Positions 600 to 9,360 of a stretch of DNA of 9,577 nucleotides are shown one piece after another (the first letter of the stretch is position 1; every line of letters begins with the position of its first letter). Below the pieces are notes generated by a model. It did not search any database, was not told where the DNA came from, and worked only from the letters and a program-made list of their open reading frames with translations. The DNA is from Sphingopyxis sp. (GTDB lineage Bacteria > Pseudomonadota > Alphaproteobacteria > Sphingomonadales > Sphingomonadaceae). The position numbers and the translations under genes are program-made. Where the stretch lies: positions 1 to 9,577 of the forward strand of contig JAAUPH010000073.1 in NCBI GenBank assembly GCA_012035435.1. Reading direction: 5' to 3'.

Positions 600-1517
600 T
601 CAATTCCCAAACGAGCATTGGTAGACCGGACTGTGATCGGTCAATTCTGATCGCTTGATCCAGAATTCACGCAATCCGTTGGGGCCGGTCCAGTTTCCGG
701 GCAATTGGACGTGGACCAATGGGCCGCGAATATCGGTGACCAAGCCGCAATTTGTCATCGTGCCGAGAACGATGGTTTTCCGCCACGCATCGAGCCTGCG
801 TTGTTCCGCAGCAGCGCTCAATTCCGCCTGCCGGTCGCGCTCTTGGGCGAGAGCTTGCTGGCGCTGGCGATCCTGCTCCTCTGCCGCGAAAGTCGCTGAT
901 GAGGCGATGCTTTCGCCTTTGATGGCGTAAATCGCTGTACGATTCGTCCGAACGAAGAAAACCTTTTCCTTCAAGGTGCGCGTGATGGTCACAATGCCGC
1001 CGAGAACCTGCTGACTGGCTCCAACGCATACGCCGGTCGATACGGTGTTGGTGAAATACCTGTCCGACGTCCGAAAACGTTCGCCTTTGTCCTGCCAGAA
1101 TCTCGTAGCGACAGGGCTGCTGTCCGGCGCGATGCTCCCCCCTGTGGCGATGCACTCATCGGTGAATTTGGCTTTTGCCGCCTTAGCAGTGGCAAGCTGA
1201 TCGGCCTTGTTATCAATGTTGAAGAAGCGGTAGCCGGACATGTTCGGCTCGAAAAAGTCGTAGCCGAAATTCAAGCGTGCGTCGTCGCGCGCATGGTCTG
1301 GCGTGATTGACGCGTTGCCGCTGGAGCCTGCTGCGCTGGCGACGCGGCCAATCCCGGAAAGACGACTGCCTTGCAGCGTCTTGAAATCGGCGCTGCCGCC
1401 GATCTGGTTGATGAAATCGCCAAATCCGGCCTGCGCCTGCGCAGCGGCGTTTGTGGCCGCGATGATCGCGCTCACGCCTGCAAGCAGGGAAATTGCCTTG
1501 GTCTTACTGGTTACCAT
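600..1517 (-). CDS. Secreted hypothetical protein, 305 aa, unknown function
   Basis: I do not recognise this family. The start at ATG 1515-1517 follows GGAGG at 4 nt. The N-terminus is a classical Sec signal peptide: Lys residues at 5 and 7, a hydrophobic stretch over about residues 9-25, and Ala-X-Ala sites ending near residue 30 (AAQAQA before GFGDF), so export to the periplasm or beyond is likely. The mature part has a Gly/Ser-rich opening, a central folded region, a charged Gln/Glu/Arg helix (about residues 210-245, possibly a coiled coil) and a C-terminal beta-rich segment with a PGNW motif. Four cysteines, two in the central region and two in the C-terminal segment, could form two disulfides in an oxidising compartment. 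It lies on the same strand as the relaxase operon but is separated from it by an insertion sequence and 220 bp. It may have been accessory cargo of the mobile element. Confidence 0.65.
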   Translation of the reverse strand: MVTSKTKAISLLAGVSAIIAATNAAAQAQAGFGDFINQIGGSADFKTLQGSRLSGIGRVASAAGSSGNASITPDHARDDARLNFGYDFFEPNMSGYRFFNIDNKADQLATAKAAKAKFTDECIATGGSIAPDSSPVATRFWQDKGERFRTSDRYFTNTVSTGVCVGASQQVLGGIVTITRTLKEKVFFVRTNRTAIYAIKGESIASSATFAAEEQDRQRQQALAQERDRQAELSAAAEQRRLDAWRKTIVLGTMTNCGLVTDIRGPLVHVQLPGNWTGPNGLREFWIKRSELTDHSPVYQCSFGN

Positions 1518-2680: not shown

Positions 2681-5590
2681 TCAAAGTTCCAGGCCCAGAG
2701 ACCGCTCTGGGTAAATGCTCGATAAGTTGGGCAGTTTTGGCGCTTCCTTGACCAACTCGTGCTGATGATCGCCGATTGGCTTGGAGCCACTGCTGGCCTC
2801 GATAGATCGGGTTTCCTTACCCGGCAGCAAATCCCGCGCATGCGGAACATTGCCGCGATGTTTGCCAATCGCGTCAGCCAGTCCCTGCTTGCTGTCCACA
2901 TGAAGCCCCAAATGCTCGCGCGCCCGCGATGACAGGACATAGAACAGGCTCGCGCTGTTGAGCTGGCGGTCATGGCTGTCCATGATGGTAATGGCGCGGT
3001 CCACGGTAAGGCCTTGGGCGCGGTGCATATTCAGGACGAGGCCATGGGCCAAGCTCTCTCGCAAGGGATTGTCATGAGCGATGGTCCGCGTTGCGGTGTC
3101 GTCGCGGAGGGTCAGGCCATTTTTCCCGATGGCCAGAATATCGACGGCTCCGCCATTGGTGATCCCCAATTCGCGATTGTTGGTTGTCCACATCAGGCGG
3201 TCTCCGGCCCGGACCTCGATCTCGCCCGGAACGGACAGGCTCGTTCCCTTCCTGCCAATAGCAAGGTCCGAGGGTTTGAACTCAAGCTGCTTGCCGTCTC
3301 GCATCAGGCTGACCTGCCCCGATTTGCGATCAACGCCGGTCACGTCATATTTGCCCCGTTCGACGCCCGCGCCAGTTTGACGCTGGAAAACTTCTAGCCG
3401 CATGCCTGCCGAGTAGTTTGCGTGTTGGCGCATCTGCTCGTTGGTCAGATTGAGATTCTCATAGACTTTGAGGGTGATTGCCGTCGCACCCAATTTTCCC
3501 TCATTGATCAAACCTGCCCGGACCTGATCCAGCACTTCAGTGCGCAACGCGTGCCCTGACGTAAATATGGCCGTCCGTGCCCGCTCCTCCTGCGAAAGCG
3601 CCAGCCAGGCATCTGCACCGGACTTGGCCGGATTGGGCGTTTCTGTCACCTTATTGCCGAGCAAGTCGAGCGCGCGTGCCGCGTTGCCAGTCTTGGCGGC
3701 TGCAACCGCTTCGCGCACGATCGGATCGAGCTGGCGTCTGTTTTCCGATAGGCGGACAGAGGGTGCCCCTTCCTCCTGCAGCAAGGCAAAGGGCCGTCCG
3801 GCTTCCGGCGCGGCGATCTGCTGCGCGTCTCCCACCAAAACCAATCGAGCCGCACCGGCATTGTCCACAATCTGCATGATGCCGAGCATCTGCCTGCTGG
3901 AAAGCATGCTGGCTTCGTCAATCAGGAGAATCTTGTTGCCGATCTCATGTGCTGCCTTGTCGATGGCATCTGGTGTCCCATTGCCCGCGGCACGCTGGTT
4001 GCGGGCAAGGAAGCCAGCAACCGTTTCAACCTCCATACTGGTCGATTGGCGAAGGTCATTGGCGAGACGATGCTGGGGCGTCAGCGCCACAATCTCGGTT
4101 CCATGCTTTTGAGCGACTTCATGGATCAGAGAAAACAATGTGGTCTTCCCGGAGCCTGCGTCGCCTTGGATGAGCTGGTAACGATGGGGACCAGAAAGGA
4201 CGGCCAATGCAGCCTCGGATTGCTCGGTCGATAATGCAATGCCTCTCGCTTGCGTCGCATCGGCAAGACCGGCTGCTGCTATGTCCTGGGCAATCAGCGG
4301 CGCGACGAGATTGCGCCCGTTGAGCGTGCGGGCGATCAATTCGTTCTCGGTGCGCAGCACGTCGCGCGTGGTCATGTGCTCGACGCCGTCGATAACCTTG
4401 GTGATCAACACGCCTTTTGCCACCAGCGCTTCAATTCGGGGCTCGATCTGCGCGACCCGAGCGCCATGCTCGGCAAAATTCAGCGAAGCTCGAAGAAGCT
4501 GGCCCGGTTCGAAGGTGGCCTGCCGTTCTGTAAGATGCCGGACACCTGCTGACACGGCGAAGGCCGCAGCCAACTCCGCACCGCGACTGGCTGGCTCCGC
4601 ATTTCTTAACAACGGCTCGGGCTTCGGACCGAATGCATGAGTAATGCGGTCCAGCAAAGCGTGACCCCACTCCCGAACCCGCGCAAACACGTTGCGTTGG
4701 GGAACCGCTTCGCGAGCCGCATCGATCAAGGGCCTCAAGTCGAGGCCGCGCTCAGTGGCAAGCGACTGCCAATATCGATCCAGTTCCGCTGGTTTGATTT
4801 CGGCCTTCGCTTCGCGGGACCGCTCAGCAATGGACTGCATGCCTTCGGGGCTGCTGATGCCGAGCCTTTCGGCTATATGAAGAATCTCGGTGCGACGCGT
4901 GCTCCACTGCTCAATTGTTGCGCGGTCGATGCCCGCGATTTCGAAGCTGCCGTGCTTGCCTGTTAGTGAAATTGCATAGCCCAGTTTTTCCAGAGAGGCG
5001 CGGAGTTCGGCATGATACACGGCTCCGATCAGTGTGTTATCCTTGAACAGGGCGGTGTTGCGTAGCGCCCGCCATTCGCTATCGGGCCGCTGCGAAATTC
5101 CAGCGATGACGGCGTGAACGTGAATGCCGGGATCAAGCCCCCTCGTTACTTGATGTGGGAATAGCGCATAGGTAAGATTGTCTGTCCGGACGGTTTGGCG
5201 ACCATTTGCGCCTTGTCGCGCAAGCGCTAGATTCTTCTCCGCCCAGCTCATGGTCGTGCGCACCGCTTCAAGATGAGCAGCGCTAACCCGCTCATCTTTG
5301 CCGACAAGTGCCACCAGCGAGACACTTTTGGGGGCTGAGAACGTTAGATCGATACCGGCCACATGCTGCCCGCCACCTCGACCGCTGATCGTGACGCCAT
5401 TCGGCAACTTCCCTGCCAAAATCGCTTCAAATTGATCGGCCTTCACCTCTCCCAATAGGCCGAGCCGCTCGGCCCCTTCACCGCCCCATTCGCTCGCCTC
5501 TGCCGACTGGTCGGCTAGATAATAATTGTCCTGGGCGTAATACTCAGCGGCTCCGGCTGCTGAGCCGACCGGCGAAACACTGACGACCAC
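2681..5590 (-). CDS. traA: MobF relaxase-helicase (TrwC/TraI/TraA type), 969 aa
   Basis: This nicks the transferred DNA strand at oriT, stays linked to its 5' end through tyrosine, and unwinds the plasmid for conjugation. GTG at 5588-5590 is chosen because it gives the family N-terminus MVVSVSPVGSAAGAAEYYA and places key residues where F TraI has them: paired tyrosines 17/18 and 23/24, Asp81 (IDLTFSAPKS), and the metal-binding His146, His157 and His159 (FPHQVTR, IHVHAV). After the relaxase domain (about 1-300) comes an SF1 helicase: Walker A GDAGSGKTT with Lys482, Walker B IDEAS with Asp558/Glu559, LVLVGDAQQ, ENRRQ, and NMHRAQGLTVDRA with a UvrD_C_2-like end. Length matches R388 TrwC (about 966 aa), so it appears complete. 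The frame is open further upstream, to a GTG at 5632, but that start would overlap the preceding gene by 40 bp. It is probably translationally coupled to that gene. Confidence 0.93.
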   Translation of the reverse strand: MVVSVSPVGSAAGAAEYYAQDNYYLADQSAEASEWGGEGAERLGLLGEVKADQFEAILAGKLPNGVTISGRGGGQHVAGIDLTFSAPKSVSLVALVGKDERVSAAHLEAVRTTMSWAEKNLALARQGANGRQTVRTDNLTYALFPHQVTRGLDPGIHVHAVIAGISQRPDSEWRALRNTALFKDNTLIGAVYHAELRASLEKLGYAISLTGKHGSFEIAGIDRATIEQWSTRRTEILHIAERLGISSPEGMQSIAERSREAKAEIKPAELDRYWQSLATERGLDLRPLIDAAREAVPQRNVFARVREWGHALLDRITHAFGPKPEPLLRNAEPASRGAELAAAFAVSAGVRHLTERQATFEPGQLLRASLNFAEHGARVAQIEPRIEALVAKGVLITKVIDGVEHMTTRDVLRTENELIARTLNGRNLVAPLIAQDIAAAGLADATQARGIALSTEQSEAALAVLSGPHRYQLIQGDAGSGKTTLFSLIHEVAQKHGTEIVALTPQHRLANDLRQSTSMEVETVAGFLARNQRAAGNGTPDAIDKAAHEIGNKILLIDEASMLSSRQMLGIMQIVDNAGAARLVLVGDAQQIAAPEAGRPFALLQEEGAPSVRLSENRRQLDPIVREAVAAAKTGNAARALDLLGNKVTETPNPAKSGADAWLALSQEERARTAIFTSGHALRTEVLDQVRAGLINEGKLGATAITLKVYENLNLTNEQMRQHANYSAGMRLEVFQRQTGAGVERGKYDVTGVDRKSGQVSLMRDGKQLEFKPSDLAIGRKGTSLSVPGEIEVRAGDRLMWTTNNRELGITNGGAVDILAIGKNGLTLRDDTATRTIAHDNPLRESLAHGLVLNMHRAQGLTVDRAITIMDSHDRQLNSASLFYVLSSRAREHLGLHVDSKQGLADAIGKHRGNVPHARDLLPGKETRSIEASSGSKPIGDHQHELVKEAPKLPNLSSIYPERSLGLEL

Positions 5591-5592
5591 GG

Positions 5593-6363
5593 TCAAGGCC
5601 CCCGCGTGAGTGCGGGCATAACCAGATTGCACCGGACCGATGACTTAGCTGCCTTGGCCCGTTCGACACATTTGGCATAGGGAGAGAGAAACTCAGGTTT
5701 GTCGAGCAGCGCCTTGGTTTCGGCCATCAATTGGCCATGGAGATAGCTGCCGCTGCTCGCGAGCAATTGCGCTGCCTGCCATTCGGTATCTGCGCCCGCC
5801 TGCCAAACCGCAACCCTGCGGCCTAGCCCGGTTCCTGATACCAAGGCGAAAATCACTGCCATGGCCAAGAGCGTGGCAACAGCGGTGCCACCAAGCCAAT
5901 ACCGGTCGCTGCGTCGCACATCCAAGATGCGCTGCCAGCGCGCATTGCTCAATTCAACGGCCAGCTCGGCGCGCCTGCCCGCTACCTCAGCGGCTTTGTC
6001 AATGCGGGCTTGTTGCTGATTGCAAAGCTGTTCGATCCGTTGGGTGCACGCCGTGATCGGGCCAACAGCTTTCGTGATGCGGTTTCCATGTTCGGCAAGG
6101 AGCTCCGACATGATTTCCTGAACCGAAGGCTCCGGCGGCTCGGGTTCTTCAATCTCGACGACCTCCGCTCTGGTCAAATCCTGTGGCATCGCGTCGTCCG
6201 GCAGGCTGGCAATTTCAGTATCGCTTGCCTCTGAATGAAGGGCTGCCATTGCGAGCTTCGTGACGAGTTCCGACGGGGTCATTCCCCGCTCGATGCCCCG
6301 GAGCTTGAATTGCTCCTTGGTCACTGGATCCAGCGTGATGCGCATGGTTACGAGGTCGGACAT
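5593..6363 (-). CDS. Membrane-anchored relaxosome accessory protein, RHH-like N-terminus, DUF6118-like
   Basis: The start at ATG 6361-6363 (MSDLVTMRI) follows AAGGAG at 8 nt. Upstream codons to 6456 are open but lack family-like sequence. The product is 256 aa. Residues 5-43 (MRITLDPVTKEQFK, then GMTPSELVTKLAMAAL) look like a ribbon-helix-helix fold: a beta strand and two helices with Thr-Pro-Ser at the second helix cap. Residues 45-80 are acidic and Pro-rich, and 82-150 are helical and probably coiled. Residues 155-179 form one strong membrane helix, followed by a roughly 75-residue tail ending near paired Cys residues (KCVERAKAAKSSVRC). The tail resembles DUF6118 proteins that I associate with TraA-type relaxases. 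It lies 19 nt after the small RHH gene and 2 nt before the relaxase start. I infer a link between the oriT complex and the inner membrane. That role is not proven. Confidence 0.7.
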   Translation of the reverse strand: MSDLVTMRITLDPVTKEQFKLRGIERGMTPSELVTKLAMAALHSEASDTEIASLPDDAMPQDLTRAEVVEIEEPEPPEPSVQEIMSELLAEHGNRITKAVGPITACTQRIEQLCNQQQARIDKAAEVAGRRAELAVELSNARWQRILDVRRSDRYWLGGTAVATLLAMAVIFALVSGTGLGRRVAVWQAGADTEWQAAQLLASSGSYLHGQLMAETKALLDKPEFLSPYAKCVERAKAAKSSVRCNLVMPALTRGP

Positions 6364-6382: not shown

Positions 6383-6646
6383 TCAATTCGGGGTTGCTTT
6401 GGGTGTTGCGCCCGTCGAGCGCGCGCGGATGGCTGCGGCGTCGGGATGCAAGCCAATCAGTTCCTGAACTGCGGCTCGCAGGAAGCCGACTTCATCGCCA
6501 ACCACAGCGTTGGGCTGATCGGCCAACTTGCTCCGGATGGCATTGCACAGGAAGGTACTGCGCGTGAGTCGTGCTGCGCGAGCCAGCTCATCCAGTTTCG
6601 CAAGCTCAGCGCGCAAAAGATAGGCGGTGACCGGTAATTTCGCCAT
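6383..6646 (-). CDS. Small ribbon-helix-helix protein, likely oriT-binding accessory factor
   Basis: This 87-aa protein opens with MAKLPVTAYLLRAELAKLDELARAARLTRSTFLCNAIRSKL, a compact RHH pattern: a short strand (VTAYLL), helix A, a turn, then helix B starting TRSTF. Proteins of this kind (TrwA, MobC and TraM-like groups) bind next to nic, help the relaxase open the DNA and repress their own promoter. Two ATGs are adjacent (6647-6649 and 6644-6646). The second has the better 7-nt spacing from GGGAG. The candidate nic site lies about 75 bp upstream, as expected for an oriT-first mobilization operon. The C-terminus beyond about residue 65 is basic and disordered-looking. Exact assignment to TrwA rather than MobC is not possible from sequence alone. 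Confidence 0.75.
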   Translation of the reverse strand: MAKLPVTAYLLRAELAKLDELARAARLTRSTFLCNAIRSKLADQPNAVVGDEVGFLRAAVQELIGLHPDAAAIRARSTGATPKATPN

Positions 6647-6697
6647 CATTCCGCTCCCGCCGAATGGCCGCTTGAATGCGAGAAATCGCCCCTTCCA

Positions 6698-6730
6698 CTG
6701 CGGGGCACTGCGCAGACATCGTCTATACCG
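6698..6730 (+). other. oriT: Candidate origin of transfer (oriT) with R388-like nic site
   Basis: CTGCG (6698-6702) and CGCAG (6711-6715) form a hairpin with an 8-nt loop. Nine bases later comes GTCTATA (6721-6727). R388, cut by the MobF relaxase TrwC, has a hairpin followed 8 nt later by GTCT/ATA, so cleavage is predicted between 6724 and 6725 on the plus strand. The transferred strand would then start at 6725 and lead rightward through the rep-like gene, with the relaxase operon entering last, as in R388. The site lies directly upstream of the RHH and relaxase genes. Motif, geometry, strand and gene context all agree. The match is to remembered R388 sequence, not an alignment. Confidence 0.7.
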
Positions 6731-6749
6731 CTTTTGAACTTAATTTCAG
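6722..6749 (-). promoter_or_regulatory. Possible promoter of the mobilization operon, overlapping nic
   Basis: On the minus strand CTGAAA (6744-6749) and TATAGA (6722-6727) are spaced 16 bp apart, each matching four of six sigma-70 positions. Transcription would begin near 6715, about 70 bp before the RHH start. The -10 box is the complement of the nic sequence, so proteins bound at oriT would block it, giving self-repression. The match is weak and alphaproteobacterial promoters are loose, so this is tentative. Confidence 0.3.
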
Positions 6750-6753
6750 GGAG

Positions 6754-6781
6754 TTGCCGCACTGTGTGCGCATGACGGCAA
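6754..6781. repeat. Overlapping inverted repeats beside the nic site
   Basis: TTGCCG (6754-6759) pairs with CGGCAA (6776-6781), and CGCAC (6758-6762) pairs with GTGCG (6766-6770) around TGT. The two cannot form fully at the same time. Placed 30 bp from the predicted nic, they are natural candidates for binding by the RHH protein or for a second oriT hairpin. No direct evidence tells which. Confidence 0.45.
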
Positions 6782-6969
6782 TCGTGTCCAGCGCGTTTGG
6801 ATGAAGCAGCTATGCTAGCGAAAATGCCAGAAATGCGCGACTTATCGGCTCCATTCTCGAATGGATGGGGTGTGCTCCCTTTTCCCTTTGCTTTCGCTTC
6901 GTCTCCGCATTCATTTCTTCGCGATTTTGAAATTGCTCTCATATTAGATTCTCCGGGCAGGTTTACTCA

Positions 6970-7734
6970 TCACAATGTAGAATCACGGTCAGGCAGCCAG
7001 TTTTCGCGAGCGAAAATGGTGCGCGCCATGCGATTGAGAATCGTCACCAAATCATCGTCTTGTACGTTGGCGCGGGCGACTGGCTGCTCCCATTCGGGCA
7101 ACTGGCAAATCATGCGTTCCCGTTCGTCACGCTGTTCTTTGCGACGCGATAGCTCGTCATCGCTAACCGGAGCCACAGGCGGCAATCGCAGTGTCTTTGC
7201 TGCAAGTTCGGGCAGCATGATCCGGTAAGCATTGGTGATCTGACGGACTGTAGGACCACTGCCAACGTTTCCCGTAGGCTCATATCGGCGGCGCAATTCG
7301 ATGAAGCCATGCAGCACAAGGCGCTTGAGCGCCTCTGAGATTGCGTTGACGCTGAGCCGTGCCCGTTCGCATAATGACAGGTATGATGGTTCGAGCCTGC
7401 CGGTGCGGTAGTCGATCAAGTCGAGCAAGACTTTGAGAACTTTGATCCCGGTGTAGCCAAGTGCGCCATTGCGCTTACCTGCCGGTTTCGTGATGTTGTC
7501 ATAGCGCTCAGCGGCTTTGAGGATCGGACCTTTCTGCTTCGGATCGAACGATTGAAAAAAGCCCTTGAGAGCGTCGCGATGTAATGATCCCCGTCTGACG
7601 AACGCTTTCATCCGGCGGCGACTGCCTCGATTGAGAAGTTCGCCAATCTGGGCACAGCGACCACGCTCAGCCTTTTCATTTTCGTTTGCAGGGTTGCTCT
7701 GGCGCAGACTAGGAGCTGAACAAGGGGCGCTCAT
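6970..7734 (-). CDS. RepA-like replication initiator with winged-helix domain
   Basis: The chosen start is ATG 7732-7734 (MSAPCSAPS, 254 aa). The open frame extends to 7863, but the added residues are Cys/Trp-rich and cross a hairpin, so they look non-coding. No strong ribosome binding site precedes the ATG, and Met85 of the long frame (7611) is an alternative. The Arg/Lys-rich N-terminus (RGRCAQIGELLNRGSRRRMKAF) is followed by a globular part. The middle is a winged helix: LEPSYLSLCERARLSVNAIS as the HTH and LHGFIELRRRYEPTG as the wing. I recall similar sphingomonad proteins annotated as replication protein A or HTH protein. Position next to oriT and a mob operon supports plasmid-type replication. 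It could instead be a transcription regulator of the element. Initiator activity is inferred. Confidence 0.6.
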   Translation of the reverse strand: MSAPCSAPSLRQSNPANENEKAERGRCAQIGELLNRGSRRRMKAFVRRGSLHRDALKGFFQSFDPKQKGPILKAAERYDNITKPAGKRNGALGYTGIKVLKVLLDLIDYRTGRLEPSYLSLCERARLSVNAISEALKRLVLHGFIELRRRYEPTGNVGSGPTVRQITNAYRIMLPELAAKTLRLPPVAPVSDDELSRRKEQRDERERMICQLPEWEQPVARANVQDDDLVTILNRMARTIFARENWLPDRDSTL

Positions 7735-7854: not shown

Positions 7855-7898
7855 GTATTCCAAGGTCGAGCAAACTTTCGGAAAAGGCGAAAATTCTG

Positions 7899-7917
7899 TT
7901 CGGGACTATTTCGGGAC
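7899..7917 (+). repeat. Tandem TTCGGGAC repeat with 11-bp period
   Basis: TTCGGGAC occurs at 7899-7906 and again at 7910-7917, spaced 11 bp, about one helical turn. It lies about 165 bp upstream of the rep-like start. Two copies on one DNA face are the smallest form of an iteron-like or regulator site. Two copies alone are weak evidence. Confidence 0.35.
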
Positions 7918-7969
7918 CCTCGTTGCCATTTGGTGCCGCTCGTTCCGCATCGGTTCTTTTCAAGTTCGC

Positions 7970-8014: not shown

Positions 8015-8089
8015 GGGCGCTTAGCTCATTGGTAGAGCATCTCGTTTACACCGAGAGGGTCGGCGGTTCGAGCCCGTCAGCGCCCACCA
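8015..8089 (+). tRNA. tRNA-Val(UAC), with encoded CCA
   Basis: All four arms fold. The acceptor stem is GGGCGCT with AGCGCCC (7 of 7), and the D stem is GCTC/GAGC. The anticodon stem TCTCG/CGAGA closes the loop TTTACAC, giving anticodon TAC at 8047-8049. The T stem GGCGG/CCGTC has one G-U pair and loop TTCGAGC. The discriminator is A, followed by genomic CCA (8087-8089). It decodes valine GUA/GUG codons. It is complete and faces the downstream minus-strand gene, whose stop is only 14 nt away. tRNA 3' ends are common integration targets, and an integrase remnant lies elsewhere in the window. I see no second copy of the tRNA 3' end here. Confidence 0.97.
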
Positions 8090-8103: not shown

Positions 8104-9360
8104 CTACCGCATATTCTCCAACGCGGCGAAATAGCGTTCCATCGCCTGCGCCGCCTGTGCCGACAATCCGATGAATATCCGCCGCCCGTCGCGCGGATCG
8201 GCCTGCCGTTCGAACAGGCCCGTATCGGTCATTGTTTTGATCCATCGCAGCGCCGTGGTCGCTGGCACTGCCGCCGCAATACACAGGCTCGACACCGCCA
8301 CCGGTTGCCCTTCCAGCTGTGCGGCATAAAGGTCCAGCAGCATGTCCCAAGCCGGGTCGGCAAACATGTCGGCGGGGAAAAATTGCTCGCGCGCGCGCCG
8401 CTGCCGCAGGACCCGGCGGACCGGCGCCGACGGGCGCGCAAGGCGGCGGCGGAAATCCGTCGCCGCCAGGTGGCCATGCAACAGGCAAATGGTGGCGGCG
8501 GCAATGGCAAGCCCATAGCCAGGCAAGAATGAAAATGACTCGATCGATAAGCCGACTTGGTGGGCAGCATAGGCCACGGTGCCGTACAGTAGAACAAGTT
8601 TGGTATAGATGAAAATTCCAGCCTGCTGGACGACCCGTTCGCCGGAGACCGACGCACCCACATCCCAGATTGAGCGAATGAGATCAAGACGGAGTCGTAC
8701 CGACGTCTTTAAGATGGGGCGACAACGCAGCAAAAGATACAGGGTGCCTGTTGCTTCAGCGAGGCCGACGGCAATGGCCGCACCCTTGATCCCTAAATTG
8801 GGTGCTCCCCATCGCCCGTAGATCAGCGGGTATGCAAGGAACGCATGAAGGAGATTGACGCCGATCATGGCAAACATGGGAGTTTTGGTATCGCCGACAC
8901 CCTGCAGAACGGACGACAGGACTTGGATGAGGATGGTACAGGGAATGACGAGGAAAATGAGTGTCGAATAGGGGAGGGCTAGCTCGATGACGCCCGGCTC
9001 CGCACCCAACTGTTGCATCACCAACCGATTACCCGCTATTCCAAAGCCGGCCAACACGAGCGACAGGCCAAGGGAAATCCAGAGGAAATGCCGTGCAGCT
9101 TCTCCTGCATCCTGCCGCCGTCGAGCTCCCCACAGCTGCGCAACGATGACGTTGGTACCGACCGAAAGCCCAGAGACCAAGGTCGTCGCGACAAATGCCA
9201 GCAGTTGACCCAGACCAACAGCTGCGATTGAAGTGGCACCAAGTCCGCCGACCAAGAATACTGCTACAATGCCTTCCGCACGTTGAAGGAGAGTACTGAC
9301 CGTGATGGGAAGGGCAAGAGTCAGGACGGAACGTCTGATCTGTGTGACACCGTTGGCCAT
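8104..9360 (-). CDS. Chimeric ORF: truncated MATE transporter fused to winged-helix regulator tail
   Basis: The start at ATG 9358-9360 has AGGA 9 nt upstream. Residues 1 to about 287 are a MATE-family cation/drug antiporter: the N-terminal lobe plus part of the second lobe, about eight membrane helices, with family phrases such as LALPITVSTLLQRAEGIV, SVLQGVGDTKTPM and LPGYGLAIAAAT. MATE proteins are usually about 450 aa with 12 helices, so the last third is missing. From about residue 290 the frame becomes soluble and Arg-rich (FRRRLARPSAPVRRVLRQRR). It continues as FFPADMFADPAWDMLLDLYA, AAVPATTALRWIKTMTD and RQADPRDGRRIFIGLS, a MarR-like winged helix I associate with sphingomonad regulators, itself lacking its first few dozen residues. 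A deletion fusing neighbouring genes is the simplest origin. Efflux function is unlikely. The DNA-binding part would be tethered to the membrane if made. Confidence 0.78.
   Translation of the reverse strand: MANGVTQIRRSVLTLALPITVSTLLQRAEGIVAVFLVGGLGATSIAAVGLGQLLAFVATTLVSGLSVGTNVIVAQLWGARRRQDAGEAARHFLWISLGLSLVLAGFGIAGNRLVMQQLGAEPGVIELALPYSTLIFLVIPCTILIQVLSSVLQGVGDTKTPMFAMIGVNLLHAFLAYPLIYGRWGAPNLGIKGAAIAVGLAEATGTLYLLLRCRPILKTSVRLRLDLIRSIWDVGASVSGERVVQQAGIFIYTKLVLLYGTVAYAAHQVGLSIESFSFLPGYGLAIAAATICLLHGHLAATDFRRRLARPSAPVRRVLRQRRAREQFFPADMFADPAWDMLLDLYAAQLEGQPVAVSSLCIAAAVPATTALRWIKTMTDTGLFERQADPRDGRRIFIGLSAQAAQAMERYFAALENMR

Follow-up and report, generated by a model that had tools for sequence, protein, structure and literature searches.

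Does the gap in front of the MobF relaxase operon on this Sphingopyxis contig hold an oriT, and if so, where and at what type of nick would the relaxase act? The window, by which we mean the whole 9,577-nucleotide stretch that was analyzed (contig JAAUPH010000073.1), carries the genes for the relaxase, a DUF6118-like protein and a ribbon-helix-helix (RHH) protein in a row, all on the minus strand (Table 1). A first-pass annotation had placed an oriT with an R388-style GTCT/ATA nick at 6698–6730 on the plus strand. We find it very probable, judging from the sequence, that the gap does hold an unannotated MobF oriT on the plus strand, as had been proposed, but that this oriT is of the F type, with a hairpin at 6850–6865 followed by ATGG-GGTGT/GC at which cleavage is predicted. 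The place 6698–6730 and the R388 type of the nick were not supported, GTCTATA being unconserved.

Table 1. Positions in the window of the features discussed in the text.
Feature	Position	Strand	Remarks
MobF (TrwC/TraI-like) relaxase with SF1 helicase part, 983-aa frame	2681–5632	−	Pfam and NCBIfam matches; true start maybe slightly later
DUF6118-like protein	5593–6363	−	RHH-like N-terminus; one membrane segment by eye
Ribbon-helix-helix (CopG-like) protein	6383–6649	−	Pfam RHH_1 22.1 bits (cut-off 20.5); 53% identical to that of L001
Direct repeats, two copies of CACTGCG	6696–6702, 6706–6712 (period 10)	+	Putative RHH operator; hold most of the hairpin of the first-pass annotation
GTCTATA	6721–6727	+	Present, unconserved; taken as a chance match
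Third, diverged repeat copy CGCACTGTG	6758–6766	+	Kept in L001
Predicted relaxase-recognition hairpin of oriT: TCCATTC (6850–6856), loop TC, GAATGGA (6859–6865)	6850–6865	+	Conserved block; relatives agree in place, strand and spacing
Spacer and predicted F-type nick motif, ATGG-GGTGT/G	6865–6874	+	F-like stem-to-nick spacing; family counts
Protein of no recognized family	6970–7734	−	Rep-like by eye only; leading side of predicted nick

The relaxase and its relatives

The catalytic domain of the relaxase lies over the curated cut-offs of both Pfam TrwC (264.4 bits, cut-off 25) and NCBIfam MobF (247.9 bits, cut-off 100), and the C-terminal SF1 helicase part is present as well (AAA_30, 144.3 bits, cut-off 27). 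When aligned with TrwC and F TraI, the protein keeps the N-terminal Tyr pairs and the three His, which agrees with the complete active site described in the first-pass annotation. The closest relative among the loci compared is found in L001, a 4-kb contig of a Novosphingobium MAG, with a relaxase that is 80% identical. No confirmed relative of the relaxase was found on viral contigs.

The tree of relaxase domains was built by a quick method with SH-aLRT support only; L044 was left out, its contig being as long as the L006 record, L008 is absent because of its short match, and some rows are near-copies of each other (L002/L003, L007/L045 and L005/L006). In this tree the window, L001, L043 and L046 form one clade (support 96), which shares a 38-row group with a nine-row clade consisting of L002, L003, L005–L007, L045 and L145–L147. 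R388 TrwC clusters with relaxases of Xanthomonas and Pseudomonas plasmids (support 93), and 12 sphingomonad rows (L131–L142) share an open fork with them. As a separate observation, the relaxase frame of L046 (L161 9183–12043) is broken near its 3′ part, and this copy looks decayed.

Two candidate sites in the gap before the operon

The string on which the R388-type proposal was built is present as described: CTGCG (6698–6702) and CGCAG (6711–6715) can pair on the plus strand across a loop of 8 nt, and the distance from the stem end to the supposed nick is 5 + 4 = 9 nt (ACATC at 6716–6720, then GTCT). In R388 (L143) the corresponding distance is 8 nt, as had been stated (CGCACC GAAA GGTGCG, TATT, GTCT/ATA), and the window is one base longer in spacing and otherwise shares the order of a hairpin and then GTCT/ATA. 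GTCTATA occurs once in the window, with 0.14 copies expected, and at least one copy was seen in 24 of 200 shuffles. The full combination (stem of at least 5, gap of 4–5, GTCTATA) was found in 0 of 5000 dinucleotide shuffles of 6650–6969, and a looser rule (stem, gap of 2–7, GTCTA) in 34 of 5000; the folding energy of the hairpin is ordinary (z −1.50).

Both this rarity and the closeness of hairpin, spacing and motif to those of R388 would favor a relaxase that cuts GTCT/ATA between 6724 and 6725. Conservation argues strongly in the other direction. It had been anticipated that hairpin and GTCTATA would both be kept among related elements, but in L001 only the repeat that forms the hairpin is kept; in the alignment of the two intergenic regions TTCCACTGCG.G.CACTGCGCAGAC is retained and GTCTATA is substituted. 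Among the 108 MobF loci surveyed below, the window itself is the only one with GTCTATA on the same strand at most 4 kb upstream of the relaxase, the outcome that the first-pass annotation had named as counting against its proposal. GTCTA next to a hairpin is at background (2/108 loci against 5, 1 and 3 in the controls), as is a relaxed GTCTA rule (20/107 against 27, 5 and 17), and the tree places the window apart from the R388 cluster. When R388 and its relatives served as positive controls, GTCTA was recovered by the exact rule in R388 itself, whereas Xanthomonas pXCV38 and Pseudomonas pDR208 yielded none, so an R388-like relaxase cannot be dismissed merely because GTCTA is lacking; no clear site emerged in Burkholderia glumae or Nostoc. 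The combination in the window is unusual as a string, yet it is unconserved, and in our judgment of these sequences the non-conservation outweighs the rarity in shuffles. An R388-type nick in the window was rejected, with GTCTATA missing at the aligned position in L001 and, within 4 kb upstream on that strand, from all 107 loci other than the window, and we regard this reading as very improbable.

The CACTGCG repeats that overlap the hairpin of the first-pass annotation are perhaps the operator of the RHH gene. L001 keeps both copies at the corresponding position ahead of its RHH gene, and elsewhere in the window CACTGCG does not occur on the plus strand and occurs once on the minus strand, at 7187. 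We lean towards the view that the block 6690–6770 is only an autoregulatory operator of the RHH gene with no role in the nick, although the comparison rests on two closely related loci only, with the binding predicted from sequence, and although in L046 the site and the operon are not separated by an RHH gene of its own. Such an operator would be compatible with a neighboring F-type oriT and would not compete with it.

The candidate F-type oriT lies about 150 bases from the site first proposed, in the same gap and on the same strand. On the strand opposite the operon, the hairpin is followed by a 4-nt spacer, GGTGT (6869–6873) and then G6874, and the nick is predicted between 6873 and 6874. 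Folded alone, 6850–6865 gives 6 pairs and a 4-nt loop. The stability of the hairpin in the window is unexceptional (z −1.14), and a stem, 4 nt and GGTGT were met in 10 of 5000 shuffles of 6650–6969 (2 of 5000 for stems of at least 6). In the alignment of the window with L001, the block 6845–6873 is conserved as TCGGCTCCATTC..AATGGAT..GGTGT, that is, as hairpin, four bases and GGTGT. A promoter and terminator scan of 6600–7000 returned nothing, and 6640–6970 showed no DNA similarity to plasmids. The weight of the F-type reading rests on conservation of the predicted site among kin loci, the counts from which are not independent.

Conservation of the predicted F-type site among sphingomonad MobF loci

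The survey drew on 298 genomes from the family to which G002 belongs, G002 being the Sphingopyxis genome with L003. Of 111 MobF places listed, 100 were fetched; one of the other 11 is L003, and the remainder were lower-scoring or without the N-terminus. Together with the window, L001–L003 and L005–L008 this gave 108 loci. For 13 of the 108 the frame is not open at the assumed relaxase start, and distances there are approximate. Under a strict rule (a stem of at least 5 perfect pairs, a loop of 2–8, 4 nt, GGTGT), 58/108 loci have a site upstream of the relaxase and on the strand opposite to it, as compared with 1/108 on the other strand and 6/108 and 3/108 on the two strands of the relaxase gene. 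The motif reads GGTGTGC in 51 of the 58; in L117, L132, L139, L001 and L002 GGTGT is followed by other letters, and L048 and L108 matched only via a recurrent, possibly coding GGTGTTG about 1.1 kb upstream. If the hairpin is not required, GGTGTGC occurs 101 times in 85/108 loci, and 51 of these occurrences have a stem exactly 4 nt before; the three controls together have 41 occurrences, 1 of them with a stem at that distance. A relaxed rule ([GC]GTGTG, stems of at least 4, gap of 3–5), set after the misses were known and applied to 107 loci (L003 left out), was matched in 101/107 against 11, 22 and 11 in the controls, and part of these matches will be due to chance.

Of the 14 rows nearest to the window (13 rows of the tree and L008), 13 carry the site. 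The exception is L003, where the DNA of the site is not on the contig and a resolvase-like frame is found instead. Small departures occur within this set: L001 reads GGTGTC and L045 reads CGTGTGC, the stems of L043 and L046 have one mismatch each, and that of L008 has a G-T pair. Among the 12 sphingomonad rows at the open fork with the R388 cluster, 11 show GCAC(NN)GTGC - GTGA/GTGG - GGTGTGT and L132 has a TCTCG stem, and five sphingomonad rows that form a clade (L123, L124, L125, L127 and L128) gave no clear site.

Place, strand and spacing of the site are conserved, and the stem shows compensatory changes across relatives. We examined this in 45 distinct sites picked by the nick-side letters alone, GT[AT][CG]GGTGTGC, with repeats and other spacers dropped and drawn from loci other than the window, L001–L008 and L043–L046. 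Because the 45-site alignment is ungapped while the loops vary in length, the arms were permuted and no covariance model was used. A perfect 5-bp stem ending beside the spacer is present in 28/45 sites, whereas 10,000 permutations of the 3′ arm gave a mean of 4.8 and a maximum of 13; at least 4 outer pairs are present in 39/45 (permuted mean 7.1, maximum 19), and with one row per distinct arm 8/13 stems are perfect (permuted mean 0.77, maximum 5). The stem is thus retained although its letters change, and CCATTC/GAATGG of the window is another version of it.

We propose that the relaxase would bind single-stranded DNA at the plus-strand hairpin, cut after T6873 and remain attached to the 5′ end at G6874. 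The plus strand would then lead rightward, so that the gene at 6970–7734 enters first and the relaxase operon last; the strand and the order of entry predicted in the first-pass annotation are thus retained. The RHH protein would serve the relaxosome as an accessory factor that attaches to the CACTGCG repeats ahead of its own gene and helps to load the relaxase. In this scheme, cleavage, the exact nick, RHH binding and transfer are what we infer from the arrangement.

Known systems and the element around the site

MobF oriTs with F-like nicks are a known kind. The nicked strand in the F record reads GCAAAAA CTTG TTTTTGC GTGG GGTGT/GG, and the portion available to us of a structural paper on F TraI describes a 49-mer with 27 nt on the 5′ side of its nick, i.e., a nick after GGTGT (PMC5422253). 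The window thus shares with F the MobF relaxase and the hairpin, 4-nt spacer and GGTGT/G on the predicted nicked strand. The two differ in the stem sequences and in layout, as oriT of F is far from traI (traM side 66 kb, traI 92.7–97.9 kb) whereas the site in the window is beside the relaxase operon, and neither traM, traJ nor other tra genes were seen in the window. In layout the window resembles R388, where TrwA is an RHH protein: in both, oriT stands before an RHH-like gene, a middle gene and the relaxase, with the nicked strand opposite the operon. However, the nick in R388 is GTCT/ATA, and the middle gene encodes a coupling protein in R388 and the DUF6118-like protein in the window. Sphingomonad MobF plasmids (L005–L008) share both the gene order and, ahead of the RHH gene, the combination of hairpin and F-type nick motif, but they are plasmids of 80–265 kb and their relaxases are 46–48% identical. 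For another plasmid, pPDL2, the accessible part of one report places oriT upstream of the repB gene and says that it matches that of pLB1 (PMC3516476).

The DUF6118-like protein of the window has no Pfam match even at E 1, and the L043 copy matches PF19613 below the cut-off (20 of 27 bits). RHH models match the copies in L001, L043 and L046, likewise below cut-off. The protein has 12 relatives at 54–66%, and the confidence of its structure model (pLDDT 61.9) was too low to support a fold search. On the leading side, the 6970–7734 protein matches no Pfam or NCBIfam family, and a 67% relative of it lies beside tRNA-Val in G027.

A tRNA-Val(TAC) gene adjoins the element in three related loci (window 8015–8089, plus strand; L043 1093–1168 and L046 1940–2015, both minus strand), and the element is always on its 5′ side, in the same relative orientation; the 4-kb contig of L001 has no tRNA. 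None of the 14-nt pieces of the tRNA-Val gene is repeated elsewhere in the window, and no att repeat was found there. Between element and tRNA-Val, the window, L043 and L046 share an identical GTTCGGGACTATTTCGGGACC (window 7898–7918) and, likewise identical, much of a nearby hairpin-like block, which ends in CAGCGGTTTTTGT or CGGCGGTTTTTGT; these may be a terminator or sites at which a recombinase binds. Beyond the tRNA gene, a protein of the MATE efflux family that ends in a winged-helix tail is encoded (8104–9360, minus strand), and in some Novosphingobium genomes (e.g., G325 and G393) tRNA-Val is near MATE-like DNA in the opposite relative orientation. At the other end of the window, on the minus strand, there is a 45-aa tail that resembles the C-terminal end of a tyrosine integrase (343–477; weak integrase-model match, E 0.014), and the relaxase gene is followed by an inserted IS5-family transposase, which occupies two overlapping frames (1757–2514). 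The protein encoded at 600–1517 (minus strand), without a Pfam match, is related to that at L045 307–1143 (31% identity, E 6e-32); its gene is an accessory one that accompanies the relaxase operon in both elements.

It is quite conceivable, if not what we would expect, that the oriT is real by descent and the element decayed and immobile. The integrase-like tail is all that the left side shows, the transposase behind the relaxase is in two frames, and no secretion or coupling gene was recognized among the window proteins searched. On the other hand, the relaxase frame is open, its active site and the stem pairing are intact, and the judgment is made from 9577 bases, with the element ends outside view. 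The window shares with IMEs a relaxase without secretion genes in the 9.6 kb seen, beyond which the element may extend, and the adjoining tRNA gene in three related loci, but neither an intact integrase nor an att repeat was found in the 9577-base window. The RHH-like N-terminus of the DUF6118-like protein, its membrane segment and its position in the slot of the R388 coupling protein suggest that it could be an oriT-binding membrane adaptor. As a tentative and rather doubtful extension, the window, L001, L043 and L046 may represent a family of chromosomal mobilizable elements with a MobF relaxase, three of the four at tRNA-Val(TAC), in which this adaptor could hand the relaxosome to the secretion system of a helper. 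MobF is not encoded by any canonical IME known to a 2017 review (PMC5704250), a statement that may since have become outdated. A MobF-bearing IME family at tRNA-Val, if true, would be the novel case.

For the predicted F-type oriT itself, the place and type of the nick are corrected relative to the first-pass annotation. In the literature searched, which included few subscription papers, we did not meet a sphingomonad MobF oriT with this hairpin-4 nt-GGTGT signature. An F-like nick motif can accompany MobF operons whose genes are ordered much as in R388, and the type of the nick should thus not be guessed from operon layout. The signature, which lies opposite the operon strand and consists of a hairpin, 4 nt and GGTGT (GGTGTGC in most cases), could mark oriTs in many sphingomonad plasmids and chromosomal elements.
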